The notes below the pieces were generated by a model. It had not been told where the DNA came from and did not search any database. It saw only the letters and a program-made list of their open reading frames with translations. From a virus, in the IMG/VR virus record IMGVR_UViG_3300024969_000055, positions 1 to 40,636 of that record: a stretch of DNA of 40,636 bases; one strand, given 5' to 3'. Positions within the stretch are counted from its first letter, which is position 1; each line of letters begins with the position of its first letter. Shown here one piece after another: positions 4,645 through 40,636 of this stretch. The position numbers and the translations under genes were made by a program.

Positions 4645-4654
4645 AGCCTATCCT

Positions 4655-9707: not shown

Positions 9708-9742
9708 ACAAAAGAAACCTCTCGTTGCCTGAGAACTGATTC

Positions 9743-9759: not shown

Positions 9760-9805
9760 ATTTCTACACTATGCGTCGAGTCAAAGCGGCGCGGCGCGCT
9801 AAACT

Positions 9806-9832: not shown

Positions 9833-9850
9833 GGGTGAAACGATGGACTA

Positions 9851-10791: not shown

Positions 10792-10823
10792 GAGCTTGCT
10801 CCTTACGTTACAGGTTATAGTGA

Positions 10824-12241: not shown

Positions 12242-12250
12242 ACCATTCCC

Positions 12251-13177
12251 CTATGCCACTGCATTTTGAAAGAAATAACCCAAGTCGTTAGCCGGCATAA
12301 ACTCCTTAACACTCTCGCCTGACCGTACACGCACACCGCCACGCAAACCGATATCCCGATCGGGGATGCTGCCGGCAATGCGGGTTCCGAACTGGGCGGT
12401 CAACATAAAGGTCGTGCCGCGCGTGGAATCAGCGGTTGAATCGCGATGAATCAAGGCGACATGCTTACCCCAGGCTCTGGCCAGCGAGGCCGACTGGCCT
12501 TTGCGGGCGTTATTGACAAACGACTCGCCAACCAGCACGTCGTCCAATTCGAACAACTGCTTCAGGATTTCGCGGTTAGCAATGCCTTTATCATTACCGG
12601 TGCCGTAATAGGCTTTAATAATCTCCGGGTTTCTAACCAGCTTGCTGTAGGCCAAGCGGCCGATGACCATCACATTAGCCCGCATCACCATACTGTCCAG
12701 CGCATCGGTAATGGTATCGATCGGCGTTGACGAGGCATGCGAAAATTGCGACGTGCCGGACAAGGTTGACTTGTTGCCGGTTGCGTAATTGGCGGCATTG
12801 AACACCATATTCGCGACCCGCACCTCACGGTCCAATTCAATCAAATTAGTCGTGTACTCAACTGCCTTGCCCAAGGGATCGTAATTAGGCGGTGCGTTAT
12901 CAATATCGGCCTGCGGAATAGCGTCATCAAGACCATAATCAACCGTGGAGTCCGTTTCTTCGGTCGCTGAAAATTCGACTTCATTCGGCCTGGATTTACG
13001 TCCCACTTTGGTATCCGGCACGGTAAAACCCTCGGCCAGATCATGCTTCAAATACTTGAACTCTTGTTTACCGACCGGAAAGCGCGGCGCCACCAAATCG
13101 GCAATCATGCTTTTATTTTTGTACATCACCGCAATCGCGGTGAGTTCCGGCTGGATCGGAAAGGGTGCGTTACTCAT
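12251..13177 (-). CDS. Major capsid protein
   Basis: A 308-residue HK97-fold-type capsid subunit, following the protease/scaffold gene and overlapping its end by eight bases. Features that fit are the N-terminal PELTAIAVMYKNKSMIADLVAPRFPV, the charged EFKYLKHDLAEGF strand region, the central helix NLIELDREVRVANMVFNAA, and the C-terminal SGESVKEFMPANDLGYFF. I place it with the gp13-like / Mu T-like group of capsid proteins. The first residues look like mature protein, so the scaffold is separate (see the nested gene). Good confidence on role, moderate on exact subfamily. Confidence 0.85.
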   Translation of the reverse strand: MSNAPFPIQPELTAIAVMYKNKSMIADLVAPRFPVGKQEFKYLKHDLAEGFTVPDTKVGRKSRPNEVEFSATEETDSTVDYGLDDAIPQADIDNAPPNYDPLGKAVEYTTNLIELDREVRVANMVFNAANYATGNKSTLSGTSQFSHASSTPIDTITDALDSMVMRANVMVIGRLAYSKLVRNPEIIKAYYGTGNDKGIANREILKQLFELDDVLVGESFVNNARKGQSASLARAWGKHVALIHRDSTADSTRGTTFMLTAQFGTRIAGSIPDRDIGLRGGVRVRSGESVKEFMPANDLGYFFQNAVA

Positions 13178-13673
13178 GGGTAGCTCCTTTAGTTACAAAA
13201 GCGACCGCATCGGCTGCACTGACAGTGCGCCCCGCTTGGCTTTCGGAAAATTGATAGGATTGCGCGGCTTTGGTGATATCTTCAACCGTGCCGCCGGGTT
13301 TAACATCGCCGCTAAAATCGATTGGCCCCGGCTTAACCGCGGCCGGCAACGCATCAAGTAGACCTTGCACAAAATCGAGTTGTTTAACTGTCTTTTTAGC
13401 GTTATCTGCGCCGACGCTAAATTCAAATACGCCGGTTTCACCCTCATCCAGTTGCAGCATAAAATCCACGGCAGGCTCTAACAGCGCGGGTGCTACGCCT
13501 CGGGCTTTATGCTTATCGACGATTGCTTGGAATTCGACGCGTTTTCGGCCATCGCGTTCCGCATCCAGCTGTTGTTGAAGTGCCTGGTTTTGCGCGGCAA
13601 AATCCGACGCCTGTTGTTTAGCGGCATCCGCCTGCTGCTTGGCAGCATCCAGATCAGCCTGAGTTACAGTCAT
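13170..13673 (-). CDS. Nested scaffold protein (Mu Z-like), internal start
   Basis: In Mu and relatives the scaffold Z is made from an internal start inside the protease gene. Here an in-frame ATG at 13673 (MTVTQADLDAAKQQ) follows an AGGAC ribosome-site-like sequence about seven bases upstream and opens exactly at the coiled-coil region (AKQQADAAKQQASDFAAQNQ). The resulting 167-residue protein would be the assembly scaffold without the protease. The start is an inference from the motif, the spacing and the known Mu arrangement. Confidence 0.65.
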   Translation of the reverse strand: MTVTQADLDAAKQQADAAKQQASDFAAQNQALQQQLDAERDGRKRVEFQAIVDKHKARGVAPALLEPAVDFMLQLDEGETGVFEFSVGADNAKKTVKQLDFVQGLLDALPAAVKPGPIDFSGDVKPGGTVEDITKAAQSYQFSESQAGRTVSAADAVAFVTKGATHE

Positions 13674-14360
13674 GGCATTGTCCTGTGGTTGTGGTTGTGA
13701 AAATGAAGAAGGCAGACCGGCGGCATCGGCTTCAGCTTGCTGCTCGGCCCGCTCCTCCTGGTACTGTTGTTCGGACAAGCGATTTAACTCATCGATGTCG
13801 TAATTGGGTAGCACGGCGTCGGCTTTCTCCTGCCCGAATTGAGCGATCAAGAACTCGCGCATATTGCGTAGGCATCGCGCCATAATGCCGGCAGATTGCC
13901 ACTCGTCCAGACTGAAATCAAACACCTCATCAGCGTTGGCAAATTGCACAGGCTGAAGGCCATCGACAGCAGGCGGCGTCGCGCCCAACCAACCGACATG
14001 GCCCAGCTTGAAACCCTTAGCGCCCTTTAGAATGCGGATTGAACGGTTTTTAAGTTTGCCGTCTTTGATCAGTTGTTCAAATCCCGGATCAACCTGAGTA
14101 AATTTACCCAGCAATGTAGTGCCGGACCGCTTAAGCTGCTCGGTCCAACCATACGCAAACGAACTGGCATCGTCTTTGGGGTGACCAATAACAATCGGCG
14201 CGGCAGTAGCAGCGCTGTGGTTAGCAATCATTTGATCGAGATCGGCGGTGGTCCAGGTTGCGGTACGTCCCGCGCTATCGGTGCGCGCACCGGCCTCAAA
14301 CAACTCAATGAAATCGTCAAAGCCTTTAAAATCTGATTGGGAGGTGTTTTTATTTTTCAT
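13170..14360 (-). CDS. Mu I-like head maturation protease with C-terminal scaffold
   Basis: A 396-residue protein. Residues about 10-160 are the Mu gpI-type prohead protease domain (DDFIELFEAGARTDSAGRTA at the start, then AAPIVIGHPKDDASSFAYGW with the conserved GHP motif, and LKNRSIRI). Residues about 225-320 are a Q/A/D-rich coiled coil and the C-terminus is a scaffold-like tail. The protease is expected to cut the scaffold and itself during head maturation. It is the first gene of the 14.4-kb late operon; the dyad-type late promoter lies directly upstream. There is no convincing ribosome site before the ATG. Confidence 0.9.
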   Translation of the reverse strand: MKNKNTSQSDFKGFDDFIELFEAGARTDSAGRTATWTTADLDQMIANHSAATAAPIVIGHPKDDASSFAYGWTEQLKRSGTTLLGKFTQVDPGFEQLIKDGKLKNRSIRILKGAKGFKLGHVGWLGATPPAVDGLQPVQFANADEVFDFSLDEWQSAGIMARCLRNMREFLIAQFGQEKADAVLPNYDIDELNRLSEQQYQEERAEQQAEADAAGLPSSFSQPQPQDNAMTVTQADLDAAKQQADAAKQQASDFAAQNQALQQQLDAERDGRKRVEFQAIVDKHKARGVAPALLEPAVDFMLQLDEGETGVFEFSVGADNAKKTVKQLDFVQGLLDALPAAVKPGPIDFSGDVKPGGTVEDITKAAQSYQFSESQAGRTVSAADAVAFVTKGATHE

Positions 14361-14393
14361 GGGTCAATAATACCCACGACTAACGAGGAGCAT

Positions 14394-14450
14394 AAGCCGT
14401 GAAATGTTTCACGGCCTTGAAGGATGAACTGCTTTTATTAGGCTAGGGCA
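14394..14450 (-). promoter_or_regulatory. Late promoter of the protease/capsid/tail operon
   Basis: Reading on the minus strand: TGCCCTAGCC, a -10-like TAATAA (14440-14435), 16 bases, then the dyad GCCGTGAAACATTTCACGGC (14415-14396). The arms pair over 9 bp around a 2-base centre. The same arrangement with the same spacing occurs at 17.5 kb and 30.2 kb, always just before a late operon. There is no good -35 box, as expected for a promoter driven by a Mor/C-type activator. The element is seen; its use as a promoter is inferred. Confidence 0.55.
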
Positions 14451-14469
14451 AAAATACTTTAGATGCAAG

Positions 14470-14790
14470 TTAGATTACTTCGCCCAATTCGACCGTCTGG
14501 CCCACCAACTCATGCGAACAGTCGGGCAGAAATTGCGCATTTCCGTCATTTATCCAAGAATGGCAACGGAACTCATGGTTTGTCGTTAAAACACTCGGTC
14601 TGATCGTAGGGCTTTCTGTGTCGCCATTCCACGTCCAGTTTCCAGTCCCTTCCCGTTTTCCTTTGATTATCACCGGTAGTGTGAGCTTTCCGGTAGGCCC
14701 TGGAATGTTCAGGGTCACATGGGTTGCTTCTTCGATTAAGCAATCCTTATAACCTTCTCCGTAAACCAACTTCACGGGCTTTGCTTTCAT
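14470..14790 (-). CDS. DUF6527 family protein
   Basis: A 106-residue protein with the DUF6527 signature: NWTWNGDTESPTIRPSVLTT, then RCHSWINDGNAQFLPDCSHE and a closing LVGQTVELGEV. The conserved His/Cys residues of the RCHSW and DCSHEL blocks look like a metal-binding or structural site. The family is frequent in phages, often beside fibre or lysis genes; its function is unknown to me. A GGAG ribosome site precedes the ATG. The gene sits alone between two strong hairpins, separating the fibre genes from the head genes. This is a cassette-like placement for an accessory gene. Confidence 0.8.
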   Translation of the reverse strand: MKAKPVKLVYGEGYKDCLIEEATHVTLNIPGPTGKLTLPVIIKGKREGTGNWTWNGDTESPTIRPSVLTTNHEFRCHSWINDGNAQFLPDCSHELVGQTVELGEVI

Positions 14791-14806
14791 AGTATCTCCG
14801 TTAATT

Positions 14807-14861
14807 ACACAATCGCATTATCCCCGCGCTCAACAGGAGCGCGGGGATAATGCGATTGTGT
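14807..14861. repeat. Perfect 25-bp inverted repeat with 5-base loop
   Basis: Arms 14807-14831 and 14837-14861 are exact reverse complements over 25 bp with loop AACAG. The arms start ACACAATCGCATTATCCCCG. The structure lies in the 109-base gap between two small accessory genes, just upstream of the DUF6527 ribosome site on the minus strand. No T-run follows on either strand. It would form a very stable RNA hairpin or DNA cruciform. Confidence 0.9.
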
Positions 14862-14899
14862 TGTTCAGCTTTCAGGGCCGCGCCCTGTTAGCTAATGCG
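14862..14899 (-). repeat. Leader repeat copy 1
   Basis: On the minus strand this stretch reads TAACGCATTAGCTAAC, a hairpin (CAGGGC-3-GCCCTG at 14887-14873), then GCTGAACAACAC. A second copy with the same order of elements lies at 15149-15194. The pair flanks the small gene at 14900-15106. Confidence 0.55.
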
Positions 14900-15106
14900 T
14901 TATACATCAATGCCGAAATGCATACCTATCATCCCTATATCCATAATTCCTATTGTGCTCGGGTCGTTTATCATTTCCCGTAATGCCTCGATACCTCCGC
15001 TAATTCCGGTGGCATTTGCAACCTGGCCAAGTTTACCTTTTTGATCCATATTTAAAAGGGCTGCTCTAAGCATGGTTTTCTTTGTCTCAAGTGTTACTGT
15101 TGCCAT
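14900..15106 (-). CDS. Small hypothetical accessory protein, 68 aa
   Basis: A small protein, 68 residues if started at MATVTLETKKTMLRAALLNM (15106) or 75 from an ATG at 15127; neither has a strong ribosome site. It has an amphipathic helix (KKTMLRAALLNMDQKGKLG) and a glycine/isoleucine/methionine-rich end (STIGIMDIGMIGMHFGIDV) that may be mildly membrane-active. No family is recognised. It sits alone between two copies of a leader repeat, in the accessory interval between fibre and head genes. Confidence 0.5.
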   Translation of the reverse strand: MATVTLETKKTMLRAALLNMDQKGKLGQVANATGISGGIEALREMINDPSTIGIMDIGMIGMHFGIDV

Positions 15107-15128
15107 AATGTATAACCCATCATTCAAC

Positions 15129-15194
15129 GTGAGCCGGATAGCTCACTGGTTTTGTTCAGCCGCGCGGTGCGGCCACGTTAATTATTGCGTTAGT
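15129..15194 (-). repeat. Leader repeat copy 2 with two hairpins
   Basis: On the minus strand: TAACGCAATAATTAAC, hairpin GCCGC-5-GCGGC (15173-15159), GCTGAACAAAAC, then hairpin GTGAGC-6-GCTCAC (15146-15129). The order and the flanking words match copy 1 at 14862-14899, where the last hairpin is replaced by the 25-bp one. This points to a duplicated or co-mobilised unit in front of each small gene. Confidence 0.55.
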
Positions 15195-15229
15195 ACGTAG
15201 AGGGCGCATCGCGAGGGTTGGGTTACGAT

Positions 15230-15946
15230 TTATAACTTAATGATGTAGTTAAGGGCTAAATAGGGCTGCATGACCGACACGTCATTTCCTGAGCCTGTAG
15301 GGGCGTTTTCCACGGTACCCGTAACCGTTACTGTGGTGGTAACGCCGCTCAAGGTAATAGGGGCTGCTTGTGCCGTGGCGGAAGGTAAATAAATGGCTGC
15401 GCTAATTGAACTTGGCGGAGCGTTCGGGGTACTGGTTAAGGTACACCCTTCACTAGCCACAGAGGAGCCGCCGCTGGTGGCAGTGCCGACCTTAATGTCA
15501 GTGGCGGCAGATACCTCCGTTAAATCCAGCGTGGCCTCATGGCTATGCGAGGGTAGCTGCGCCTCAGTAAGCGTCACACTTTCCGAACCGCCGCTGGCCC
15601 CCAAGGCATAGCCTGCGCCTGCGCCTATAACTGTATTACCTCGCAAGTCAGGTACATTGAACGTAGTACTTCCGTCACCGGCCCCGTAAGTTGTCTCTAT
15701 CACCGCAAACAGATTGGCGTCGGTTGTGCGTGATAGAGCTGAGCCGTCACAAATATGCCAGCCCGCTGGGCTTGTGGCCCCAGCGTACATGCGTATTTCC
15801 CCAGGCAACGTGCTCACGCCGAGATTAGCACGCGCCTCGGCGGCCGTTGTGGCGCCGGTGCCGCCATTGGCTACGGGTACAGCGTCACCATCTGCAAATT
15901 GAGCGCGGTGACCCTGGCTAATCTTTAAGGGCCGGACGTCAGTCAT
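15230..15946 (-). CDS. Phage tail-collar fibre protein
   Basis: A 238-residue adsorption protein. Residues about 55-105 are a tail-collar domain (PF07484 type): STLPGEIRMYAGATSPAGWH, ICDGSAL, TTYGAGDGSTTFNVPDLRG, GAGAGYALGASGGSESVTLT, LPSHSHEA. The GW.ICDG, F.LPDLRG-like and HSHE-type motifs are all visible. The N-terminal region (VPVANGGTGATTAAEARANL) is the repeat that ends phage fibre shafts. The C-terminal half is T/S/V-rich beta. It probably forms the fibre tip. It is the last of four fibre genes in this operon. Confidence 0.88.
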   Translation of the reverse strand: MTDVRPLKISQGHRAQFADGDAVPVANGGTGATTAAEARANLGVSTLPGEIRMYAGATSPAGWHICDGSALSRTTDANLFAVIETTYGAGDGSTTFNVPDLRGNTVIGAGAGYALGASGGSESVTLTEAQLPSHSHEATLDLTEVSAATDIKVGTATSGGSSVASEGCTLTSTPNAPPSSISAAIYLPSATAQAAPITLSGVTTTVTVTGTVENAPTGSGNDVSVMQPYLALNYIIKL

Positions 15947-15949
15947 AAA

Positions 15950-16546
15950 TTACGCTAAAACATCAATGTCCGAAGCTTGAAAGTTGACGTTTGTCGCTGA
16001 AGTAGCGAACCCGACAACCTGAATAACGTTTCCTGATCCTGATGGAGGGGTGGCAGAAGTGCCACCGGCGGTGGTGCTTAGATATTGCTTTCCAGGCGTC
16101 CGTCCTGTCACCGCATCGTTTGATCCTTCAAAGTACACCACCGCACTGGTCGGATGAGTAAACGACGCTAAAACAAATCCGTGAGCCTCTTTCCCTGCGG
16201 TTGTAGCGTCCGATTTTCTTACCTCAGCAGTGCCGGCGTTATCCCAGATATTGACAAGATCCCCGGCAGCCAGCGTTTCGGAAGTTGCAATCAATGATGT
16301 ATCCGGGCCCACACCGGTCGGCATAAAACTTAGATCCAGTCGACCACCAGACCCCAACGCAGGAACCTTGCCGGAATCACCCGCACCCGCACTGGTTGTT
16401 TTACTGTTTACGATGGAGGGATCAAGCACGCCACTAGCGTTAAGTGCGATAATTTTCCCTGCGTCAGCAGCTCCAGCGGATGTATCGTTGGAAGCGGTTT
16501 CGGTTCTAACACCATTAACTAAGGCTATATATTTTTTTCCGGCCAT
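15950..16546 (-). CDS. Putative tail fibre / receptor-binding subunit, 198 aa
   Basis: A 198-residue protein. Near the start a unit is present twice: TSAGAADAGKIIALNASGVLDPSI and TSAGAGDSGKVPALGSGGRLDLSF (consensus TSAGAxDxGKxxALxxxGxLDxS). This motif occurs in phage fibre shafts. The C-terminal half (GDLVNIWDNAGTAEVRKSDA, HGFVLASFTHPTSAVVYFEG, TPGKQYLSTTAGGTS) matches a small beta domain common on phage and capsular fibres. It lies between a collagen-like shaft gene and the collar fibre, so it likely belongs to the same fibre. Confidence 0.7.
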   Translation of the reverse strand: MAGKKYIALVNGVRTETASNDTSAGAADAGKIIALNASGVLDPSIVNSKTTSAGAGDSGKVPALGSGGRLDLSFMPTGVGPDTSLIATSETLAAGDLVNIWDNAGTAEVRKSDATTAGKEAHGFVLASFTHPTSAVVYFEGSNDAVTGRTPGKQYLSTTAGGTSATPPSGSGNVIQVVGFATSATNVNFQASDIDVLA

Positions 16547-16556
16547 GATTTTCCCC

Positions 16557-17075
16557 TTATAGGACGATTGGTTCTGAAATGTTAATTAAAAGTTTCGTTG
16601 TAGATATCGCCACACCAACCCGCTGTAAATAGCCGGATGTAGGTATGATCTGAGTAACCGTTCCTGAAACGGATAGATAAACCGGCTGATCAGCCGTCAG
16701 GCCGAAGAAACCGTCAAGCTCACTTGTGGTTGCAATATCCACTAGCGATCCTTGGCTTGCCGCGCCCGCTGTTATACCTATAGCGTTGCCGGCGGTTGTT
16801 ATATCTGCACTATCGGCATAGACGGCGGCAGCCGTTACAACGCGGTTTCCGCCCAGATCAATACCGGCAATGAGTTGTATTACTGAGCCGCCCGAAGCGC
16901 CTACAAGTGACACCAGCCATTCTGCCTCGGTACCTACAAAGCCGTTAGCCACGGCCGACTGATAGGCGCTGAGCCCAGGCGGCCCCGGAACCCCGACCTC
17001 AACCACGACCGACTCAGCAGAACCAGCCTCGACAGTAATAAGCTCCGGCTGCTGAATAATGACAACATCAGTCAT
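16557..17075 (-). CDS. Collagen-like tail fibre segment, 172 aa
   Basis: A 172-residue protein. After a short N-terminal strand region (VVIIQQPELITVEAGSAES) comes GPPGLSAYQSAVANGF followed by GTEAEWLVSLVGASG. This motif is widespread in phage fibres just after collagen-like GxxG repeats. The C-terminal part (FGLTADQPVYLSVSGTVTQI, LQRVGVAISTTKLLINI) is the small beta domain that often ends such proteins. Its ATG overlaps the upstream gene by eight bases. It probably forms a trimeric fibre segment joining the baseplate protein to the collar fibre. Confidence 0.75.
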   Translation of the reverse strand: MTDVVIIQQPELITVEAGSAESVVVEVGVPGPPGLSAYQSAVANGFVGTEAEWLVSLVGASGGSVIQLIAGIDLGGNRVVTAAAVYADSADITTAGNAIGITAGAASQGSLVDIATTSELDGFFGLTADQPVYLSVSGTVTQIIPTSGYLQRVGVAISTTKLLINISEPIVL

Positions 17076-17403
17076 GCGTCTGGTCTTCCAGCACGGCCAG
17101 CGCCGAGGATTCGTAGGTTTTCACCGTGCCGTCGGCATGCGTCACCTCAAGATCAAATTTATATGTACCCGGCGCCCAGGTAGCCGTTTCCGCCGCCGCC
17201 ACCGTCAACGTTAATTTGCCTGCCGTAGCGTCGACAACAATATCTCCGTTCACGGTTGACGCGGCATAAATCAGGGCCTTTGCGTTATTGCGAACATGCA
17301 GGCGCGCCGTTGCCCCGGACAGGTCAATCGGTTGTTTAACTGGATTTTTCAGCACCCAGACTCGCGACCAGGTATCGCCGCGATACAGTTTGGCTGCGTT
17401 CAT
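17068..17403 (-). CDS. BppU-like N-terminal fibre/baseplate adaptor
   Basis: I start at the ATG at 17403 (MNAAKLYRGDTWSRVWVLKN), because the longer frame to 17487 would put the start inside the promoter dyad. The 111-residue beta protein has the pattern LYRGDTW...PIDLSGATARLHVRN...TWAPGTYKFDLEVTHADG. I recognise this as the BppU/DUF2479-like N-terminal domain that anchors fibres to the tail tip. It is the first gene of the fibre operon. The ribosome site is weak. Confidence 0.7.
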   Translation of the reverse strand: MNAAKLYRGDTWSRVWVLKNPVKQPIDLSGATARLHVRNNAKALIYAASTVNGDIVVDATAGKLTLTVAAAETATWAPGTYKFDLEVTHADGTVKTYESSALAVLEDQTHD

Positions 17404-17467
17404 GCTGCTAACGGTAAGTGATGAAGTAAGTTCATGGGTAAAGCATACCCATGCCGAACGGGGTGAG

Positions 17468-17520
17468 TAAGACGTGAAACGTTTCACGTCTTAAGTAAGG
17501 CAGGTCGTTTTTATAGACTA
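17468..17520 (-). promoter_or_regulatory. Late promoter of the fibre operon
   Basis: On the minus strand: TTTTGCCATAGTC, -10-like TATAAA (17515-17510), about 16 bases, then a perfect 26-bp palindrome at 17493-17468 whose core is GACGTGAAACGTTTCACGTC. The 11 bases TTTGCC(A/C)TAG(T/C) before the -10 are shared with the 14.4-kb site. The dyad differs from the other two copies outside GTGAAA/TTTCAC, yet pairing is kept. No -35 match is seen. Promoter function is inferred from recurrence at three late operons. Confidence 0.58.
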
Positions 17521-17562
17521 TGGCAAAAAAAAGCACCACGCAAGCAAAACAGGAAAAGCCTA

Positions 17563-17871
17563 ATGATTACCCAAAGGTACCTTGAAAAATTAACTATTAA
17601 GCAATTGCAAGAGCTCAAGAACGCGGTAATTACATTAATCGCACAAAAAGAATCAGCGCCAAAAGTATTGCTTTGGCAAGTGTGTGATGAAGATATTGCC
17701 CTAGACTATTTTTTAGAGAAAGACTACCTAAAGGCAGCCGAACACCTGCTTAAAACAGCTCAGGAATATGCAGCGAATCCAGACATGAATAATCTGGATA
17801 AAAGACTCGAGCTTACGTATATCACCATACCCGAATCAGAGATGAAACATTACCCCATCAATCCCAGTTAG
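17563..17871 (+). CDS. Small hypothetical protein, 102 aa
   Basis: A 102-residue plus-strand protein, divergent from the fibre operon. An AGGAAAAG ribosome site is eight to ten bases before the ATG. The N-terminus is helical (YLEKLTIKQLQELKNAVITL) and the middle has a helix-turn-helix-like repeat pattern (DIALDYFLEKDYLKAAEHLL), reminiscent of a single TPR-like hairpin. It is acidic and A/T-rich compared with neighbours. It has the look of a lysogeny-expressed accessory gene (moron), since it lies alone beside the repressor. The function is unknown. Confidence 0.6.
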   Translation: MITQRYLEKLTIKQLQELKNAVITLIAQKESAPKVLLWQVCDEDIALDYFLEKDYLKAAEHLLKTAQEYAANPDMNNLDKRLELTYITIPESEMKHYPINPS

Positions 17872-17880
17872 ACCGCATTC

Positions 17881-17924
17881 AAAACCCCTTCAAAAATCGA
17901 TATAAGGCGCTTCGAGGGTTTTTT
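17881..17924 (+). terminator. Possible terminator after the 102-aa gene
   Basis: AAAACCC (17881-17887) pairs with GGGTTTT (17916-17922) and the sequence ends in a T-run. The loop is long (28 bases), so this is a weak candidate. Confidence 0.35.
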
Positions 17925-17991
17925 AATGGCTCAGTACGCATAAACGCCTAACGCGCCCGTGACGGCCTATTTTTACAACATCCGGAGCAAC

Positions 17992-18147
17992 ATGAAAGCA
18001 GGGTTAATTTTTCGCTGGGGCAGCTGTTGGATAGGCGCCCATTGGTCGCCTTATAACAAACGGCTGTGTATTAACCTGGTGCCTTGTGTGACGATCTGGG
18101 TAACGATACCGGGCGGCGTTGAGCCAGCTTGTACGTTAAAACCATGA
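17992..18147 (+). CDS. Small conserved phage protein, 51 aa
   Basis: I start at the ATG at 17992 (MKAGLIFRWGSCWIGAHWS), preceded by a CGGAG-like ribosome site; a longer frame exists but has none. The 51-residue product with W-G-S-x-W-I/V-G-A-H, Y-N-K-R-L-C-I-N-L-V-P-C-V-T and WVTIPGG blocks matches a small protein found near the regulatory or early regions of various phages. Two Cys and several Trp suggest a compact fold. The function is not known. It is downstream of, and could be cotranscribed with, the 102-residue gene. Confidence 0.6.
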   Translation: MKAGLIFRWGSCWIGAHWSPYNKRLCINLVPCVTIWVTIPGGVEPACTLKP

Positions 18148-18148
18148 T

Positions 18149-18170
18149 GGTGCGCGGTGCGCACCCTACT
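18149..18170. repeat. GGTGCGC/GCGCACC dispersed palindrome
   Basis: GGTGCGC (18149-18155) and GCGCACC (18159-18165), followed by CTAC, form a hairpin. The word GTGCGCACCCTAC recurs at 29410-29422. It separates the convergent 51-residue and TPR-like genes and could stop transcription from both sides. Confidence 0.5.
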
Positions 18171-18173
18171 GAG

Positions 18174-18602
18174 CTAACTCAATTTACGAGCACGTTGTTC
18201 TATTTTTCGCTGCCTGGTATTAAGCAACACAATTTCATCATCAATGATTTTACGGTAAGTATTTCTCTGCGTTTTCGATACTTTGGCAAAGCCGCCTTTT
18301 TGCCGCCAACCCCATTCTTTATACAAAAGCTCTCGGGCATCGGCAGTTATATCGACATCATCATAAAGTCCCTGAAGCCAACTAAGCGCCTCTTCATACC
18401 GATCAGCCAGATGATGGTAACGTGCCAGCCTGAAATAAGTTTTGATAGGCCACTCGGTTGAGCAAGTCGTCATTAACGCATAAGCTTTTGACAAGCTGCC
18501 AATGGCAGCATCGTAATCTTTATCATTGGCTTGTACCGTGGCCCTTTTCAACAGGTTACGGATTTCTTCATGATCTACATCATTGCCGGTTAATCCGAGC
18601 AT
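18174..18602 (-). CDS. TPR-like protein downstream of the repressor, 142 aa
   Basis: A 142-residue helical protein in the same orientation as the repressor, 34 bases after it, so probably made in the lysogen. Helix pairs with TPR-like A/G/Y spacing are visible: ATVQANDKDYDAAIGSLSKA, YFRLARYHHLADRYEEALSW. A basic helical tail follows (QRNTYRKIIDDEIVLLNTRQ). TPR proteins mediate protein contacts. A role in superinfection exclusion or lysogenic control is possible but is a guess from expression context. The plus-strand frame over it is a shadow. Confidence 0.65.
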   Translation of the reverse strand: MLGLTGNDVDHEEIRNLLKRATVQANDKDYDAAIGSLSKAYALMTTCSTEWPIKTYFRLARYHHLADRYEEALSWLQGLYDDVDITADARELLYKEWGWRQKGGFAKVSKTQRNTYRKIIDDEIVLLNTRQRKIEQRARKLS

Positions 18603-18636
18603 ACTTTCCCCCGTTTAAAATCTATCTGTTTAAATC

Positions 18637-19329
18637 TCACCACTCATGCATCGATGCAACAACTCGTCCAATCACCGCCATATCCAAAGCCTCATTCGAT
18701 AAATCCACTTGATATGGAGCAAAGCCAGCATTAAAGCTACAGACCTGTACCATGCCTTGCGGCAGCAATTGCAGGTTTTTAACCAGCAGATGCCCGTCTA
18801 TTCTTAGTACGTAAGTCTTACCGCTTGTGACCGTTGTCTGCGAACGATCAACTAGCACCATGTCGCCATCCTTAAGGTAAGGTTCCATAGAATTACCGCT
18901 CACATCCACAATCGCCAGCATGTCGGGAGATAAATGCCGCGTCGCTAACCAATCACGCCGAAATGCTAACGGCTGCAGCTGTTCTTCAGTCCCATTAATC
19001 GCTCCGTGCCCAGCGGCTACCTGCACGTTATAACGGGGTACGGCAGAAAATTCGTCACTTTCGTAATTACTATGCTTATACGACACCGGGTGTGTAGACG
19101 GGGATATTGTTTTATACGGAGTAGTGCTTGGCGAGAGCATATGCTCAATATCCATATTATGTGAATACAAATATTCGATTAATTCATCATAAGGGATAGA
19201 GCCGCGTTGCTTTCTATTCGAATACGCAGTAGGACTAATGCCAAGGCATTCAGCAATAGCCTTATCACTTCCAAGACCTACGGCCTTAGCGAATCTGCTC
19301 ATCACTAGATCAAAAGAATTAATCCCCAT
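18637..19329 (-). CDS. Phage repressor, S24/LexA-like with autocleavage domain
   Basis: A 230-residue CI-type repressor that should keep the prophage silent. Residues about 8-65 are an XRE-like helix-turn-helix (SDKAIAECLGISPTAYSNRK). Residues about 100-215 are an S24 peptidase domain. A predicted Ala106-Gly107 cleavage site lies in NVQVAAGHGA. The catalytic serine is S147 (SGNSMEP) and the general-base lysine is K184 (HLLVKNL). All needed residues are present, so RecA-stimulated self-cleavage, hence SOS induction, is likely. This differs from Mu itself, whose repressor lacks this domain. It is divergent from Ner across a 152-base control region. Confidence 0.92.
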   Translation of the reverse strand: MGINSFDLVMSRFAKAVGLGSDKAIAECLGISPTAYSNRKQRGSIPYDELIEYLYSHNMDIEHMLSPSTTPYKTISPSTHPVSYKHSNYESDEFSAVPRYNVQVAAGHGAINGTEEQLQPLAFRRDWLATRHLSPDMLAIVDVSGNSMEPYLKDGDMVLVDRSQTTVTSGKTYVLRIDGHLLVKNLQLLPQGMVQVCSFNAGFAPYQVDLSNEALDMAVIGRVVASMHEW

Positions 19330-33216: not shown

Positions 33217-34923
33217 ATGGCCGATCTATCCGAAAAAGAATTCCAAAAAGAAGTAGCTGAGCTTACTCGGGCGCTGCGCCGCGACATTGACGCCTACAGC
33301 ATCGGCCTTGATCCGTCTCCCGCTGCCATTACCGAGCGCCGCAAACGCGTGCTGCTCGGTGATTTCCGGTTTTTCGCTTACACCTATTTTCCGCACCACA
33401 TCCGTGGCGATTCTTCATTATTTCAGGCGCATTTTTGCGAGCGTTTCCCAAAGTTGCTGCGCCAGAAAGGCGGAACCCGCGACTGGTGGGTTGCGCCGCG
33501 CGGGGAGGCTAAATCGTCGCTATTAACCAAGGTCGGCCCGGTCTGGTGCGCCGTTCAGGGCTTGCTGGAAAAGCCTGAAATTCGTAAGGAGATCGGCTGG
33601 GAGGGTCTGCCGCCGCCGTTTATCGATTATATCGTGCTGCTGGGTGCCGAAACTAAGTTGCCGACCAAGTTGTTGGAGGTAGTTAAAACCGAGTTGACGG
33701 CTAACGCTGCCCTGGCACTGGATTTTCCGGATGTGTGCGGCAAGACGGCGGTGTGGAAGGTCGGCGAGTTTGTCACTAAGACGAACGTTAAGGTCGAACC
33801 GTTCGGCGCTGAGCAGGCGATCAGGGGGACTTTTCACGGGGCTTCGCGGCCTAAGTTGCTGCTGGGTGACGATCTGATTACCGATGCGGAAGCCAAGTCA
33901 CCCACCGAGCGCGAGAACCGCTGGAACTGGTTGGAAAAGTCGATTGATTATCTGGGCCCGCCGGATGGGTCGGTCAAATACATGGGCGTGGGGACGATTT
34001 TAAATAAAGACGATCCTATCTCCCGCGCTAAAAAGACCATCGGCCATTTGGTGCATCATTTCAAGGCGATTGTACAGATGCCGACGAATGATGATCTGTG
34101 GGCTCAGTGCGAAGAGCTGATGCACAACGACGATAAGCGTACTGAACTGCGGCTGGCCGATAAAGGCGATGTGGTGGAGGTGGAATCGCTGCCGTCGTAT
34201 CAGTTTTACAGGCGTCATAAAAAGGCTATGGATAAGGGGGCGGTGATTTCGTGGCCTTCGGTGCGGTCGCTGTATACGTTGATGCGGGCCCGAGCGAAAA
34301 GCCGCAGGGCGTTTGCGACGGAAATGCAGGGCGATGCGCGGTCCGATGAGGATAAGGTGTTTACGTCGTATCAATTTTGGGTGCAGCGCTTATCGCATTG
34401 GATTTTTTATGGCGGCTGCGATCCGTCGATGGGCAAGGGACAAAAGTCGCATCCCAGTGCATTGCTGGTCGGCGGCTTTGATCCGGTATCGTTGATTTTG
34501 CATGTGATGTATGTGAGCCGAAAGCGGCGGGTGCCAAGTAAGTTGGCGGCTGATTTAATCATGCTGCAAAAGGAGTTCAATTGCCAGGCGTGGGGCTTTG
34601 AAAGCGTCAATGCTTACGATTATATGCGCACGGAGTTTATCGATGCGGCGTTGCGGCAACAGGTGTATTTGCCGCTGGTCGGGGTGACCACCAATGTGCC
34701 GAAAGAGGTGCGCATTGATGGCTTGGAGCCGGTGATTAGTTCGATGTCGCCGCGTATTTTGTTCCAGGCCGATCAGACGCAGTTGACGGATGAGATGGAT
34801 ACCTTTCCGGAGCCGCAGACTGAGCATGATTACGATGGGCTGGATGGGTTGCAGATTTTGTATGCAACGGCGGTGTCCAGGGCTGGCGGGGTGCCGCGGA
34901 TTGTTACGCGGTCGAGGGGGTAA
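33217..34923 (+). CDS. Large terminase subunit (Mu gp28-like)
   Basis: A 568-residue packaging motor. Walker A-like motif WVAPRGEAKSSLLT with K99; Walker B LLLGDDLITD with D218 and D219; nuclease-domain aspartate D402 in FYGGCDPSMGKG. The end is the RNase-H-like nuclease (QWGFESVNAYDYMRTEF-like segment, EHDYDGLDGLQILYA). It translocates DNA into the head and cuts the filled genome. Order (small terminase, large terminase, DUF935 portal) is the Mu order. Confidence 0.92.
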   Translation: MADLSEKEFQKEVAELTRALRRDIDAYSIGLDPSPAAITERRKRVLLGDFRFFAYTYFPHHIRGDSSLFQAHFCERFPKLLRQKGGTRDWWVAPRGEAKSSLLTKVGPVWCAVQGLLEKPEIRKEIGWEGLPPPFIDYIVLLGAETKLPTKLLEVVKTELTANAALALDFPDVCGKTAVWKVGEFVTKTNVKVEPFGAEQAIRGTFHGASRPKLLLGDDLITDAEAKSPTERENRWNWLEKSIDYLGPPDGSVKYMGVGTILNKDDPISRAKKTIGHLVHHFKAIVQMPTNDDLWAQCEELMHNDDKRTELRLADKGDVVEVESLPSYQFYRRHKKAMDKGAVISWPSVRSLYTLMRARAKSRRAFATEMQGDARSDEDKVFTSYQFWVQRLSHWIFYGGCDPSMGKGQKSHPSALLVGGFDPVSLILHVMYVSRKRRVPSKLAADLIMLQKEFNCQAWGFESVNAYDYMRTEFIDAALRQQVYLPLVGVTTNVPKEVRIDGLEPVISSMSPRILFQADQTQLTDEMDTFPEPQTEHDYDGLDGLQILYATAVSRAGGVPRIVTRSRG

Positions 34924-34928
34924 ATACC

Positions 34929-35165
34929 ATGATAAATGTTAATACTGAATTTGACATTGAAAGAATTGATAACGGCTTGCTGGTTACCAGCGGGATTGGC
35001 GACGAGCAAACAAGGAGGTATTACGAAAATATTAATCAGGTCATTAGCGCATTGACGACCGAATTAGAAGAGCAATTTAAACAATCCCGCCATTTTACCT
35101 GGGATGGAAATTTTAAGATTATTTTAACGGCTCATGACATAGGCAGAGAGTCCCACCATGATTAA
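34929..35165 (+). CDS. Small hypothetical protein, 78 aa
   Basis: A 78-residue protein, start five bases after the terminase stop, overlapping the portal start by eight bases. It has FDIERIDNGLLVTSGIGDEQ, then RRYYENINQVISALTTELEE, an alpha/beta pattern, with an acidic end. It is more A/T-rich than the terminase and portal, as if inserted between them. No family is recognised. Confidence 0.58.
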   Translation: MINVNTEFDIERIDNGLLVTSGIGDEQTRRYYENINQVISALTTELEEQFKQSRHFTWDGNFKIILTAHDIGRESHHD

Positions 35166-36675
35166 TGTATTAAAAAAAGCCGCCAAAAAGCTGTTAGGCA
35201 CTGAGATTGCCTCGCGCACCTCCGACCCTAATTTTTACGGCGCTCTCCAGTTTTTGCCTAATCCCGACACGATCCTGCGCAAGATGGGCAAAAGCCAGGA
35301 GGTGTTTGACGCGATTATTGCCGATGCGCATGTGATCGGCGAGCTGCGGCCGATGCGGGCCAATATCATCACGTATAACTGGCGTATTTCGCCAGGCGGC
35401 GACAAACCGGAGGATATGCGGGCGTTTGAATTGGCTCAGCAGGTGTACAGCAAGCAGCCGGCACCACGTATGGGCTGGCCGGACGTGTTTTGGAATATGC
35501 ATGAGGCGATTTTACGCGGCCAGCGTATTTATGAGGTGGTTTGGAATGTGGTGGACGGTCTGCAAACGCCGGTACGGTTGATTGACCGGCCGAATCATCG
35601 CTTTGTGTATGGGCTGGACAATGATTTACGGCTGTTGACCCGTGAGAACCGCTTTGAAGGTGTGCCGGTCGATGATTATAAGTTTTTAATATCGCGGCAC
35701 ATGCCGAGTTATGACAATCCTTACGGCGTGGCGCTGCTGTCCAGCTGCTTTTGGCCGTATACGTTTAAGCATGGCGGTTTTAAGTTTTTTGTTAAGTTTT
35801 GCGAGAAGTACGGCCTCCCGTGGGCGGTCGGCAAGTATCCGGCCGGTACCGCGCAAGCGCAGATCGATGCGTTGGCGGATGGTCTGGCCCGGATGGTTGA
35901 GGATGCGATCGCGGCAATTCCGGACAGCGGCGCGGTCGAGCTGATCGAGGCCGGTTCTTCCGGGAGTCAATTGCCGCAAGAGCGCTTAATCCAGGTGTGT
36001 AATGCGGAGATGAGCAAGTGTTTGAACTCGCAAACGCTGGCTACGGAAATTAACGGTCAAGGCAGTTATGCGGCGGCACAAACGCATCGTGGCCGGGAGC
36101 AAAACAATGGCGCTGCCGATCGGAAGATTGTCGAAGACACGAATAATGAGCTGCTGGCCTGGATGACCAAGCTTAATTTTGCCGGGGCCGCTGCGCCTAA
36201 GTTTGAGTTTTACGATGAGGCGGAAGCTCGGAAGGATTGGGTCGAGGTGTTTACTGGGGCGCGGGATTTTTTGGATGTGCCGGTTAAGTTTGCGCATGAG
36301 CGTTTGCAGATCCCGGAACCGGTGGACGGTGAGGCGGTGTTGCCTAGATCGGCGGCTCCAGCTGTTTTGCCTCAGGGTTTGGGGCGTAATTTTAGTCAGA
36401 GTGATTTTGCGGCCAGCGCTGATGTCGATCCGTCGCCGGTCACTGCATTTACTAATCAACTGGCTGGGGAAGCTGCCGATCCGTTTAAGCAGATACTGGA
36501 TGTGCTTCGCGCTAAGGTCGATAAGGCTGCTAAGTCCGGTAATTTGGAAACGCTACGCGATGATGTAATCAGTAGCTATGGCGATTTGGATAGTGACGAC
36601 TTGGAAAAGGTGATGTCGTTTGCGTTTGCGGCTGCTGAACTGGCGGGGCGGTTTGATGTGCGGGAGGAAGAGTAA
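35158..36675 (+). CDS. Portal protein (DUF935, Mu gp29-like)
   Basis: A 505-residue protein of the DUF935 family: FYGALQFLPNPDTILRKMGK, LRPMRANIITYNWRISPG, RLIDRPNHRFVYGLDNDLRL, and the family core SGSQLPQERLIQVCNAEMSK-CLNSQTLATEINGQ. It forms the dodecameric portal at one head vertex for DNA entry and tail attachment. The length is usual for the family. The C-terminal A/D-rich region is variable. It is followed by the small genes and F-like protein. Confidence 0.92.
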   Translation: MINVLKKAAKKLLGTEIASRTSDPNFYGALQFLPNPDTILRKMGKSQEVFDAIIADAHVIGELRPMRANIITYNWRISPGGDKPEDMRAFELAQQVYSKQPAPRMGWPDVFWNMHEAILRGQRIYEVVWNVVDGLQTPVRLIDRPNHRFVYGLDNDLRLLTRENRFEGVPVDDYKFLISRHMPSYDNPYGVALLSSCFWPYTFKHGGFKFFVKFCEKYGLPWAVGKYPAGTAQAQIDALADGLARMVEDAIAAIPDSGAVELIEAGSSGSQLPQERLIQVCNAEMSKCLNSQTLATEINGQGSYAAAQTHRGREQNNGAADRKIVEDTNNELLAWMTKLNFAGAAAPKFEFYDEAEARKDWVEVFTGARDFLDVPVKFAHERLQIPEPVDGEAVLPRSAAPAVLPQGLGRNFSQSDFAASADVDPSPVTAFTNQLAGEAADPFKQILDVLRAKVDKAAKSGNLETLRDDVISSYGDLDSDDLEKVMSFAFAAAELAGRFDVREEE

Positions 36676-36962
36676 TGGCTAAAAAGCGTATTTATCCAAC
36701 GTACTGGAGCCAATGGTTTGGTAAGTTTGCCATTCAGAGCGTTAAATCGGGTCAACCCTGTGTTGTCTACATAGTAGGAATGAATGAATCCGGCTTAATG
36801 ATTGCAAGAAAAGTAAACACAGGAATTATCGGTTTCGTTAAGCCATGGAACTTGATCGATTATTCACCCAGGTTATTTGATCGTCTGAATGTAGCCTGGA
36901 AACTGAAGGAAGCACATCAGGTAATTGATAGACAAACTATGCGGCTTATGAGTGGGAAATGA
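36675..36962 (+). CDS. Small hypothetical protein, 95 aa
   Basis: A 95-residue basic protein, one base overlapping the portal stop. WSQWFGKFAIQSVKSGQPCV, VYIVGMNESGLMIARKVNT, GIIGFVKPWNLIDYS suggest beta strands; the end is helical. It is A/T-rich relative to the portal. No family is recognised. Probably an accessory insertion in the head operon. Confidence 0.55.
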   Translation: MAKKRIYPTYWSQWFGKFAIQSVKSGQPCVVYIVGMNESGLMIARKVNTGIIGFVKPWNLIDYSPRLFDRLNVAWKLKEAHQVIDRQTMRLMSGK

Positions 36963-37141
36963 TGAATAAATACGATCCTGAAATGTTCACGTTTTTTATC
37001 GTGGCTATAAAAAATATCACTCTTGTTGCGTGTACAGCCATAACAGTAGTTGCTTTGTTTTATTTCAGTCGTTCATGGTGGAGTTTGCTGGCTATTCTGA
37101 TGCTCGCCTTCCTTTCATCTGGTAATTTCACTAGAGATTGA
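36959..37141 (+). CDS. Small membrane protein, 60 aa
   Basis: A 60-residue protein, starting on the previous stop (ATG at 36959 or 36962). Two hydrophobic stretches (FFIVAIKNITLVACTAITVV and SLLAILMLAFLSSG) with a Trp pair between them make it an integral membrane protein. It lies in the head operon between portal and F, where Mu has no membrane gene. It may be a superinfection-exclusion or accessory protein; unproven. Confidence 0.55.
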   Translation: MMNKYDPEMFTFFIVAIKNITLVACTAITVVALFYFSRSWWSLLAILMLAFLSSGNFTRD

Positions 37142-37145
37142 GCAG

Positions 37146-38354
37146 ATGCCTTTAAATATATCGCCAACTCAGATCGCCTTTAACACCAGAGGTGACGGCA
37201 CTTTCAACAAACCGTTTAAGGAGCAGGTCGATTTCTTACGGCAAAAGCTCAATTTGCCGACCGAGCATTACGACGACGTTATTAAGTCGGGCCATGACCG
37301 CGCTTTTGTTATGGCTGGCGTTACCAAGGCCGATTTGCTGGATGATTTTCGGCAGGCGATCGACAAGACGACGGCTGAAGGTAAATCTATCGGTTGGTTC
37401 CGCGATAATTTTGACCGCTTCGTTGAAAAGCACGGTTGGGCCTATAACGGTGAGCGCGATTGGCGCACTCGGGTGATTTATACGACTAATATCCGGGCCA
37501 GTTATGCGGCCGGCCGCTATGCGCAATTGAACGATCCGGATTTGTTAAAAGTCCGTCCCTACTGGAAATATAACCATTCCGATACTGTCGCGCATCCACG
37601 TGAACTGCATCAAAGTTGGGATGGTACGGTATTGCACTATACCCATCCGTGGTGGCTTACTCATTTTTGCCCTAATGGCTACGGTTGCCAATGTTACATC
37701 ACGGCGGTCAGGGCCAGCGAGTACAAGGGCTATGCTGCTCCGGATGACGGTACTTACACTAAAACCGATCGCTACGGGGCGACTCATGTATTGCCTAATG
37801 GTGTGGATTACGGTTTTGACTATGCGCCTGGCAGTAAAACGGATACGTCGTTACGTCAATTGGTGCAGGATAAGTTGATCCGCTACCCGGCCGCTATTAC
37901 CAGGGCTTTGAGTAAGGATGTTAACCGCTATATCAACGCAACTGCCGATATCGCCGGTTTTGCTGCCAAAGCGCTTGCTGAGCGCGGCAATACGGAAACT
38001 TTATGGCTGGGCTTTGTCGAAAATGCTGAGCAAATTAAACAGGCGGTTGATGAGGATGTGACCGGTTATCTGGTGTTATTGCCCGCCCAATCTGTCCGGC
38101 ACGTTGAAAAAAGCCGGTCATTTGATGGCGATGGACAAAGAGCTATCAAGCCGGATGATTTTGCGGGGGTAATGGATGTTTTGTCGAATTACGACTCGAT
38201 AAGCTCTGGCGATAAGAGCATTACCGGCAACAATACTGTTGTGGTATGGGGTACTTATAACGGCGAAAGGATAAGGTTGGTATTTGAGGTGTTGAACGGA
38301 AAAAAGAACAGGAGTTTGTCGCTGTCTTCGTTGGTAGTCAAAACAAATAAATAG
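37146..38354 (+). CDS. Mu F-like head morphogenesis protein fused to a PBECR-type nuclease domain
   Basis: A 402-residue protein. Residues about 1-230 are Mu gpF-like (phage head morphogenesis): PFKEQVDFLRQKLNLPTEHY, IDKTTAEGKSIGWFRDNFDR, RASYAAGRYAQLNDPDLLKV, then the Cys motif FCPNGYGCQCYITAV. Residues about 275-402 are a phage Barnase-EndoU-ColicinE5/D-RelE-like (PBECR) nuclease domain: ETLWLGFVENAEQIKQAVDE, LLPAQSVRHVEKSR with a His, DFAGVMDVLSNYDSI, VVVWGTYNGERIRLVFEVLN, KKNRSLSLSSLVVKTNK. Such fusions are known in Mu-like F proteins. A few copies enter the head, so a toxin could enter the cell with the DNA. No partner immunity gene is evident next door. Confidence 0.82.
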   Translation: MPLNISPTQIAFNTRGDGTFNKPFKEQVDFLRQKLNLPTEHYDDVIKSGHDRAFVMAGVTKADLLDDFRQAIDKTTAEGKSIGWFRDNFDRFVEKHGWAYNGERDWRTRVIYTTNIRASYAAGRYAQLNDPDLLKVRPYWKYNHSDTVAHPRELHQSWDGTVLHYTHPWWLTHFCPNGYGCQCYITAVRASEYKGYAAPDDGTYTKTDRYGATHVLPNGVDYGFDYAPGSKTDTSLRQLVQDKLIRYPAAITRALSKDVNRYINATADIAGFAAKALAERGNTETLWLGFVENAEQIKQAVDEDVTGYLVLLPAQSVRHVEKSRSFDGDGQRAIKPDDFAGVMDVLSNYDSISSGDKSITGNNTVVVWGTYNGERIRLVFEVLNGKKNRSLSLSSLVVKTNK

Positions 38355-38407
38355 GCGGTGTCCAGTGCTGCAAATGCCCTCTGAACTAAACGTCCGAAAC
38401 GAGTCCG
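38353..38407. repeat. Inverted repeat AGGCGG/CCGCCT between F and G
   Basis: AGGCGG (38353-38358) and CCGCCT (38402-38407) are reverse complements around a 43-base loop in the 111-base gap before the G-like gene. No T-run. It may moderate read-through to G; a modest signal. Confidence 0.35.
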
Positions 38408-38465
38408 CCTCTGACTACAGTATAGATCAACACCATATGAATGTTAATAGTAGGAGCATGTCGCG

Positions 38466-38900
38466 ATGGAAATAGATGATCGTGAGGTTTTAGCGGCGCT
38501 GGGCAGGGTGCAGGAGCGCATTGGTAATATGCGTCCGTTGTTGGCTGAGATCGGCGAGGATATGACGGCATCGACCAAGAAGCGGTTTGATACGACTACT
38601 GCGCCGGACGGTAGCCCTTGGTTACTCAATAGTGTGTTATCGACCTTACTCTATAAGGAGGGCGATACGCCGCTGACCGGTGAAACGGGGTTGCTGCACA
38701 GTACGATCAATTACAACGTGCTTTCTACAACTGCGGTTGAAATAGGTAGCCCGATGGAATATGCGGCTATGCAACAGTTTGGGGGTACGAAAGCTGAATT
38801 TCCGCATTTATGGGGTGATATTCCTGACCGTGAGTATTTGGGTCTATCTGAGGAGGATAAGTCGAATATCTTGGATTTAACTGTCGATTATTTGCTTTAA
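38466..38900 (+). CDS. Mu G-like virion morphogenesis protein
   Basis: A 144-residue protein of the phage virion morphogenesis family (Mu gpG, PF05069). The N-terminal helix (VLAALGRVQERIGNMRPLLA) leads to ASTKKRFDTTTAPDGSPWLL, the S-P-W motif of the family, then LTGETGLLHSTINYNVL and the MEYAAMQQFGGTK stretch. In Mu it is involved in head-tail assembly. It is the last structural gene on the plus strand; the Mu order would continue with the I protease, which here lies on the opposite arm. TAGGAG precedes the ATG. Confidence 0.85.
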   Translation: MEIDDREVLAALGRVQERIGNMRPLLAEIGEDMTASTKKRFDTTTAPDGSPWLLNSVLSTLLYKEGDTPLTGETGLLHSTINYNVLSTTAVEIGSPMEYAAMQQFGGTKAEFPHLWGDIPDREYLGLSEEDKSNILDLTVDYLL

Positions 38901-39089: not shown

Positions 39090-39869
39090 ATGGCAAAAAG
39101 TCCGTTATCCGGATGGATGGGTGGTAAATTCCAGTTATCCAAACAAGTTATTTCTATGATTCCACAGCACCACTGTTACTGTGAGCCCTTTGCTGGGGCT
39201 GCGTGGGTGTTCTTTAAAAAAGAGAGGTCTGAGGTTGAGGTTTTAAACGATATCAATACGGATATTATTACGCTGTATCGCGTGATTCAGCACCATATTG
39301 ATGAGTTCGGCCGGTGGTTAAAGTGGGTTCTGGTTAGCCGATCTGAGTTTGCGCGCTGGCTGTCGGCCGAACCGACATCATTAACTGATATTCAACGTGC
39401 TGCTCGGTTCTTCTACATTCAAAAGAATTCGTTTGCTGGCAGAATTGATAAGCCGACTTTCGGCTACGCACCTTCCAGGAAGCCTCGGATGAATATATTG
39501 CGCATCCAGGAGGATTTATCGGAAGCACATTTAAGGTTATCTGAGGTTTATGTAGAAAATCTTCCTTATGCTGAGTTGATAAAGCGTTATGACCGGGAAG
39601 GCACGTTTTTCTATATTGATCCGCCTTATTGGGATTGTGAGGATTATTACGGCAAAAATATCTTTTCTAAGGATGATTTTTTGGCTTTATCTGATCAACT
39701 TGGGAAGATTAAAGGCAAGTTTTTGCTTAGCTTGAATGATACGCCTGAAGTAAGGGAGATATTTGCCAGGTTTATCATTGAGCCCGTCTCAGTGCGGTAT
39801 TCGTGTGGTACTAAAAAGACTGTCGCTAAGGAGGTGTTAATCAGAAATTACGAGCTATCGGCGAATTAA
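39090..39869 (+). CDS. D12-class adenine-specific DNA methyltransferase
   Basis: A 259-residue N6-adenine methylase of the Dam/D12 class. The SAM site motif is GWMGGKFQLSKQVISMIPQH near the N-terminus, EPFAGAAWVFF follows, and the catalytic motif is DPPY (D177-Y180 in FFYIDPPYWDC). The C-terminal block (CGTKKTVAKEVLIRNY) is typical. Such phage enzymes modify GATC or similar sites to evade host restriction. It is at the edge of the phage, after the late operon, with A/T-rich flanks, as moron genes are. The target site is not predictable from this sequence. Confidence 0.92.
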   Translation: MAKSPLSGWMGGKFQLSKQVISMIPQHHCYCEPFAGAAWVFFKKERSEVEVLNDINTDIITLYRVIQHHIDEFGRWLKWVLVSRSEFARWLSAEPTSLTDIQRAARFFYIQKNSFAGRIDKPTFGYAPSRKPRMNILRIQEDLSEAHLRLSEVYVENLPYAELIKRYDREGTFFYIDPPYWDCEDYYGKNIFSKDDFLALSDQLGKIKGKFLLSLNDTPEVREIFARFIIEPVSVRYSCGTKKTVAKEVLIRNYELSAN

Positions 39870-39875
39870 TGGATA

Positions 39876-39942
39876 AAATGGTGGTAGAGATTTTTTATTT
39901 TTTACCACCATTTCACTGTTTTTTTACCGGTAAAAAGTGAAA
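39876..39942. terminator. Overlapping hairpins after the methylase
   Basis: AAATGGTGGTA (39876-39886) pairs with TACCACCATTT (39903-39913) around a T-rich loop. TTTCACT (39911-39917) pairs with AGTGAAA (39936-39942), with TTTTTACCGGTAAAAA inside. The two structures share 39911-39913, so they exclude each other in part. A T-rich stretch supports termination. Bases 39943-40056 are A/T-rich with no gene. Confidence 0.5.
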
Positions 39943-40056
39943 TATCATTGAATCTGTCGCAAATTAACTTTTTTATATTTTCTTTATTGTTTGTGTAAAT
40001 GATTGATTTATTGGGACGATTTTTTATTTATGCTTGCTTATTTCTTCGCATATTAA

Positions 40057-40636
40057 ATGTCTCCCCACAATAATCAGGAATGGTTTAACGATATCCGTTT
40101 CGAACTGAATAAGATTTTAGCTTTTGCTGGCTATTCCCTTGGCGAAAATGGAAAAATATCCATTACCTCAAAGTCTTCCACAATCAGTGAATCGGCTGCA
40201 AAAGCCAGTAAGCTTAAAGAGCACCGTTCATCCAGATATACTGAAGTATTGCCAGGAAGAATTACTTGTAGATAACTATTTTCATGTGGTATTTGAAGCA
40301 ACAAAGAGTGTTGCTGATAAAATTCGTATTAGAACTGACTTAACTTCTGACGGCGCATCTCTTATTGATGAAGCTTTTTCCTTCAAGGAAAAAATACCTC
40401 ATCTTGCTTTAAATGCTTTGGAAACGGAAAGTGAACAAAGTGAGCAAAAGGGTTTTATGAATTTAGTAAAAGGTTTATTTGGTACTTTTAGAAACACAAC
40501 TGCACATGCACCAAAAATTAAATGGTCAATCGAAGAACAAGACGCCCTAGATATTCTTTCAATGGTATCGCTTATTCATAGACGATTAGATACTGCAATT
40601 GAAGCCCGAAAAATGTATGAAGGAAAAGTCAAGTAG
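40057..40636 (+). pseudogene. Frameshifted TIGR02391-family gene
   Basis: Two overlapping frames together make one protein. The first (40057 onward) gives the N-terminus (FNDIRFELNKILAFAGYSLG, then TISESAAKASKLKE). The second, shifted +1, gives the rest from about 40205: STVHPDILKYCQEELL, NYFHVVFEATKSVADKIR, SEQKGFMNLVKGLFGTFRNT, and IHRRLDTAIE. This is the TIGR02391 (Ymh-like) pattern found next to restriction/methylation genes and in phages. The join lies near 40190-40215. The gene is either broken, has a sequencing error, or uses a programmed shift. It may already be host DNA. Confidence 0.7.

Follow-up and report, generated by a model that had tools for sequence, protein, structure and literature searches.

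Fusions of a MuF head protein with a PBECR domain have been known since 2017, when they were predicted to be packaged and injected and to have RNase activity (Iyer 2017; PMC5512222). These fusions, among them Mu gp30/F with its MuF-C end, combine MuF with a BECR-fold C-terminal domain and are encoded in the head module after the portal gene. According to the same study, the active PBECR configuration is a His in the N-terminal helix together with a C-terminal Ser/Thr, one PBECR family has an Arg where the His is expected, and the domain of Mu itself is described as inactive, with RNA binding suggested (PMC5512222). A related group consists of MuF carriers with variable toxic ends, which were described as polymorphic toxins (Jamet 2017; PMC5576092). 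Like the protein studied here, these have a MuF carrier with variable C-terminal modules in temperate phages; they occur mostly in Firmicutes, and a small ORF (<150 aa) encoding a putative immunity protein lies downstream in 89% of cases (PMC5576092). Among cultured Mu-like phages, RS1 (Rhodovulum) and RC1 (Rhodobacter) encode F proteins which end in PBECR3 and are annotated as 'minor head protein and DNA pilot', and JBD25 and RcapMu encode F proteins with a PBECR2 end.

We identified an F gene of this design (37146-38354, plus strand) in a virus record of 40,636 bases, which is referred to as the window. Because ends of the same type (PBECR2, PBECR3 or MuF_C) are present on the F proteins of JBD25, RcapMu, RS1/RC1 and many prophages, and were described in 2017 (PMC5512222), the fusion is not unusual, and the window adds one more example to a known kind. 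As judged from the aligned sequences, the new element is a PBECR3 subclade that has diverged and in which one position of the active site is changed.

The window encodes a CI-like repressor, a Mu-type transposase, transposition protein B, an endolysin and a holin, as well as terminase, head and tail genes. This gene content marks the phage as transposable and temperate, and we take it to be a Mu-like siphophage. The F gene lies in the packaging module, downstream of the gene for a Mu-type portal protein (35158-36675, plus strand; PF06074, 290 bits), from which it is separated by two small ORFs. It is followed by a gap of 111 bp (38355-38465) and by a gene for a neck or virion morphogenesis protein (38466-38900, plus strand; Phage_tail_S, 80 bits). 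The layout of the window is unusual: its left part (1-19329) has the protease, major head and tail genes on the minus strand, and its right part (33217-38900) has the terminase-portal-F-neck genes on the plus strand. In JBD30, the protease, head, tail and terminase-portal-F-neck genes form one run. In a relative of the window (L004) the F gene is likewise found close to the right end of the contig. The region past the neck gene (39090-40636) encodes a D12-class adenine methyltransferase and a Hypoth_Ymh protein; since JBD30 carries the anti-CRISPR gene acrF1 in the equivalent slot, this region looks like a position for accessory genes.

The ORF encodes a protein of 402 amino acids and contains the motifs quoted in an earlier sequence-only reading, which had described an F-like head protein with a C-terminal nuclease domain of the PBECR type. 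The F-like part and the PBECR-type part of this description were both borne out. The N-terminal part matched phrog_220 'minor head protein and DNA pilot' (E 6e-79), and the Phage_Mu_F core (PF04233; residues 106-185, 37461-37700) scored 29.5 bits, 0.1 bit below the Pfam cut-off of 29.6 and thus essentially at it. By these matches, about residues 1-245 are assigned to the Mu F-type minor head proteins.

The C-terminal part (residues 293-396, 38022-38333) matched PBECR3 (PF18812), a family of phage Barnase/EndoU/ColicinE5-D/RelE-like nucleases. The whole protein scored 17.4 bits and the domain by itself 20.8 bits (E 3.7e-4), so that the profile search found the expected family at a score short of the curated cut-off of 30 bits. 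The assignment to PBECR3 therefore rests on linked MuF+PBECR3 homologs that pass the cut-off. The domain directly matched the ends of two full MuF proteins from other genomes, L008 (E 2.5e-9) and L011 (E 1e-6), which score 34 and 52 bits with PBECR3; a third member above the cut-off (L025) was homologous to the domain in alignment A2. The same MuF+PBECR3 architecture is found in L014, L025, L030 and the cultured phage RS1, whose F scored 30.9 bits with PBECR3 and whose C-terminal domain shows weak direct similarity to that of the window; the tblastn match in RC1 was identical to that in RS1. One further match (L009) was left aside as an apparent chance match in a non-phage frame. Residues ~293-396 are thus classified, by sequence homology, as a diverged member of PBECR3.

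Apart from a copy in Nitrosomonas nitrosa with 55% identity, the domain has no close relative. Comparison of the two copies indicated purifying selection (pN 0.29 and pS 0.76, with synonymous sites saturated), so the domain is doing something. No relative of the domain alone was found in viral contigs, no match was obtained in phage and plasmid records by tblastn with the domain alone, and no PHROG matched it. Searches of PDB sequences with the domain and with a profile gave nothing meaningful. In hhalign comparisons, similarity between PBECR3 and a PBECR2 set was not detectable, and that between PBECR3 and a MuF_C set was weak (E 0.0015, probability 17).

Structure prediction for a nuclease fold, which the sequence-only reading had put forward as a check, gave a result in line with it. 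The AlphaFold2 model of the window domain (pLDDT 75.8, pTM 0.72) and that of the L030 domain (pLDDT 91.5) both place a helix ahead of a sheet of four strands, in agreement with the BECR core of an N-terminal helix and 4-5 strands (PMC5512222). In Foldseek searches the window model matched predicted phage 'Nuclease' and polyvalent proteins (best E 5e-7, TM 0.70). Among PDB entries there was no match at E <= 0.001; a toxin-antitoxin complex from Salmonella (chain 7vd7_A) was found with a probability of 0.99 and E 0.026, and the L030 model gave a weak match to RelE. As modelled, the domain has the BECR fold.

Candidate catalytic residues were examined in alignment A2, which consists of 13 rows including the window, N. 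nitrosa, L014, L020 and RS1. The family pattern is R-H-x-x-x-x-H-G in the first core helix, followed by a conserved acidic residue and a C-terminal Ser/Thr. The His singled out in the sequence-only reading, that of 'SVRHVEK', is His319 (38100-38102); this column contains His in 11 of the 13 rows and Lys in L014 and L020, and it is less conserved than the second, 'K-H-G' His, which is present in all 11 other members. At the latter position only the window (Arg324, 38115-38117) and N. nitrosa have Arg, and in both of them four residues beside it are deleted. Glu381 of 'VFE' (38286-38288) is invariant in alignment A1 and conserved at 90% or more in A4, and Ser395 (38328-38330) is aligned in A2 with the C-terminal Ser/Thr of the family. 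RS1, unlike the window, retains both helix His (VRHVFASHG), and in a three-sequence alignment the PBECR2 ends of JBD25 and RcapMu have no His at the aligned place in the helix. The window protein thus differs from the fusions of Iyer et al. in being of the PBECR3 type, in scoring below the Pfam cut-off and in having Arg for the 'K-H-G' His. The expectation that the catalytic residues would be kept held for His319 and Ser395 and failed for the 'K-H-G' His. Since this His is replaced by Arg324, catalysis by the window domain appears doubtful. With His319, Glu381 and Ser395 kept, the second His lost and Arg also present in one PBECR family, activity may be possible and is not assured.

Close relatives of the window F differ in their C-terminal ends. 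The MuF part of L002 is 67% identical to that of the window and is followed by a MuF_C-like end; that of N. nitrosa (L006; 65%) is followed by PBECR3, that of L039 (G324, 1477-3012; 61%) by a HELGH metallopeptidase-like end which has no Pfam match, and that of L004 (57%) by a MuF_C-like end similar to the one in L002. HE..H motifs were also observed in L059-L061. PBECR2 ends are frequent among F proteins with 42-53% MuF identity (L005, L042, L043, L044, L049, JBD25 and RcapMu, the last two having MuF parts 45% identical to that of the window). Short F proteins without a C-terminal domain are encoded by Chromohalobacter phage YPCBV-1 and by vB_ThpS-P1. Because MuF parts that are 57-67% identical to that of the window carry MuF_C, PBECR3 or metallopeptidase-like ends, these comparisons indicate that the C-terminus of F is an exchangeable module on a conserved MuF carrier. 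Recent acquisition of the module could not be read from base composition, as the difference in GC3 (0.49 in the C-terminal domain and 0.55 in the MuF part) is not decisive.

That the neighbouring genes offer no clear immunity protein had also been suggested, and the search for one agreed with this. The 111-bp gap downstream of F contains no convincing small ORF; the only frame is one of 36 codons which starts with GTG and enters the neck gene. Upstream, the 95-aa ORF (36675-36962, plus strand) is at best a weak immunity candidate, with no match in Pfam, PHROG or NCBIfam and no relative in viral contigs, and the 60-aa ORF (36959-37141, plus strand), hydrophobic and membrane-like by inspection, has no relative in viral contigs either. 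Both are low in GC (39% against 50.7% for the window), and for neither is a counterpart listed in N. nitrosa. As these orphan ORFs lack relatives and such a counterpart, they were rejected as immunity genes. In N. nitrosa an 83-aa frame is present downstream of F; it gave no significant match to the window (best E 7).

Evidence on the fate of F in the virion comes from relatives. F was found in purified virions of vB_ThpS-P1 with 53 peptides, of which 15 were unique (PMC5488378); this F is 42% identical to the window in the MuF part and lacks the C-terminal domain. JBD30 gp33, an F homolog annotated as an F-type minor head protein, was treated as a scaffold which is cleaved by the protease and leaves the procapsid (PMC11445458). 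For the F protein of the window, packaging and injection are inferred.

The explanation we favour, and consider fairly probable, is that F carries a virion-borne, swappable effector domain which would be packaged, enter the cell with the DNA and cut or bind RNA. The MuF part would bind the portal or head, and the last ~130 residues, the diverged PBECR3 domain, would be exchangeable cargo. The head would contain a small number of F molecules, which would enter the cell together with the DNA, and the BECR-fold domain could then cut or bind RNA early in infection, the putative targets being host mRNA, tRNA or defence RNA. We give RNase activity as such slightly less than an even chance; the foremost alternative is that the domain binds RNA and does not cleave it. 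Against the effector explanation stand the Pfam score below the cut-off, Arg324, the lack of a PDB match at E <= 0.001, the lack of an immunity gene, the treatment of JBD30 gp33 as a cleaved scaffold and the detection in virions of an F without the domain. In a rival reading the fold is kept and the enzyme is lost, and the domain would serve to bind nucleic acid (RNA or DNA) or would act as a structural element or scaffold of the head, as proposed for the F of Mu. The exchange of the 'K-H-G' His for Arg324 with its adjacent deletion, common to the window and N. nitrosa, fits such a loss, as do the PBECR2 ends of the cultured phages JBD25 and RcapMu without the helix His, the Mu domain called inactive, with RNA binding suggested (PMC5512222), and the scaffold described in JBD30 (PMC11445458). 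However, His319, Glu381 and Ser395 are kept, and the pair of His and Ser/Thr is the active PBECR configuration (PMC5512222). For a structural part it would moreover be unexpected that some F proteins do without the C-terminus and that others have it replaced by unrelated modules which appear to be enzymatic. We regard loss of the enzyme as a serious possibility, but as less probable than not.

A classical MuF polymorphic toxin, directed against competing bacteria while a dedicated immunity protein protects the lysogen, is unlikely. The architecture and the diversity of C-termini fit such a toxin (PMC5576092), and the two low-GC orphan ORFs immediately upstream of F could be seen in the same light; however, the gap downstream of F, where 89% of MuF toxins have an ORF (PMC5576092), is empty, and the upstream ORFs have neither relatives nor a listed counterpart beside the domain copy of N. 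nitrosa. The window phage also differs from the majority of these toxin carriers in being Mu-like, with relatives in Proteobacteria. Chance similarity, with the C-terminus being an unrelated structural extension of F, would account for the sub-threshold Pfam score and for the missing PHROG and PDB sequence matches, and was rejected as very improbable in view of the transitive homology through L008 and L011, the aligned His, Glu and Ser/Thr, and the match in fold.

Two phage segments related to the window were observed inside CRISPR arrays of two unrelated genomes. In N. nitrosa Nm90 (L006:14-5928, L034; NZ_QAOO01000004.1), a Mu-like segment of 2736 bp with a partial portal gene, F with PBECR3, the 83-aa ORF and a partial neck gene lies between the last two repeats of an array of 127 repeats and 126 intervals with a 60-bp period. 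The F gene in this segment (L006:4167-5381) has an in-frame TAG just ahead of the PBECR3 domain, and this copy is therefore broken. In G238 (L016, L033; contig C60), a segment of 950 bp, which begins in the middle of an F gene with PBECR3 and ends at the start of the neck gene, lies between the last two repeats of an array with 13 intervals, a 61-bp period and a repeat that differs from that of N. nitrosa; its first ~22 bp after the repeat could not be aligned to phage relatives. From their sequences the repeats look I-F-like in N. nitrosa and I-E-like in G238. Both segments are located at the array end away from the leader, with repeats on both sides. As the only Mu portal found in the N. nitrosa genome (G001) is the partial copy of the segment, none was found in G238, and no terminase was found in either, a misjoin with a resident prophage is not the obvious explanation; an assembly error may nevertheless account for the arrangement. 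A shallow literature search found no prior description of phage segments between the last CRISPR repeats. CRISPR RNA was suggested as a possible PBECR target by Iyer et al. (PMC5512222). That the F-borne PBECR3 domain would be a virion-delivered anti-CRISPR RNase, with the embedded portal-F-neck segments as a trace of the conflict, is a very improbable idea, with which the segments are no more than compatible.

The window enlarges a known and biochemically little-explored group of virion-associated effector domains by a diverged PBECR3 subclade. It shows that closely related F proteins of Mu-like phages differ by exchange of the C-terminus, and points to His319, Arg324 and Ser395 as residues of interest. 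If some PBECR domains are live RNases and others are dead, Mu-like phages would be convenient for studying the role of an injected RNase.
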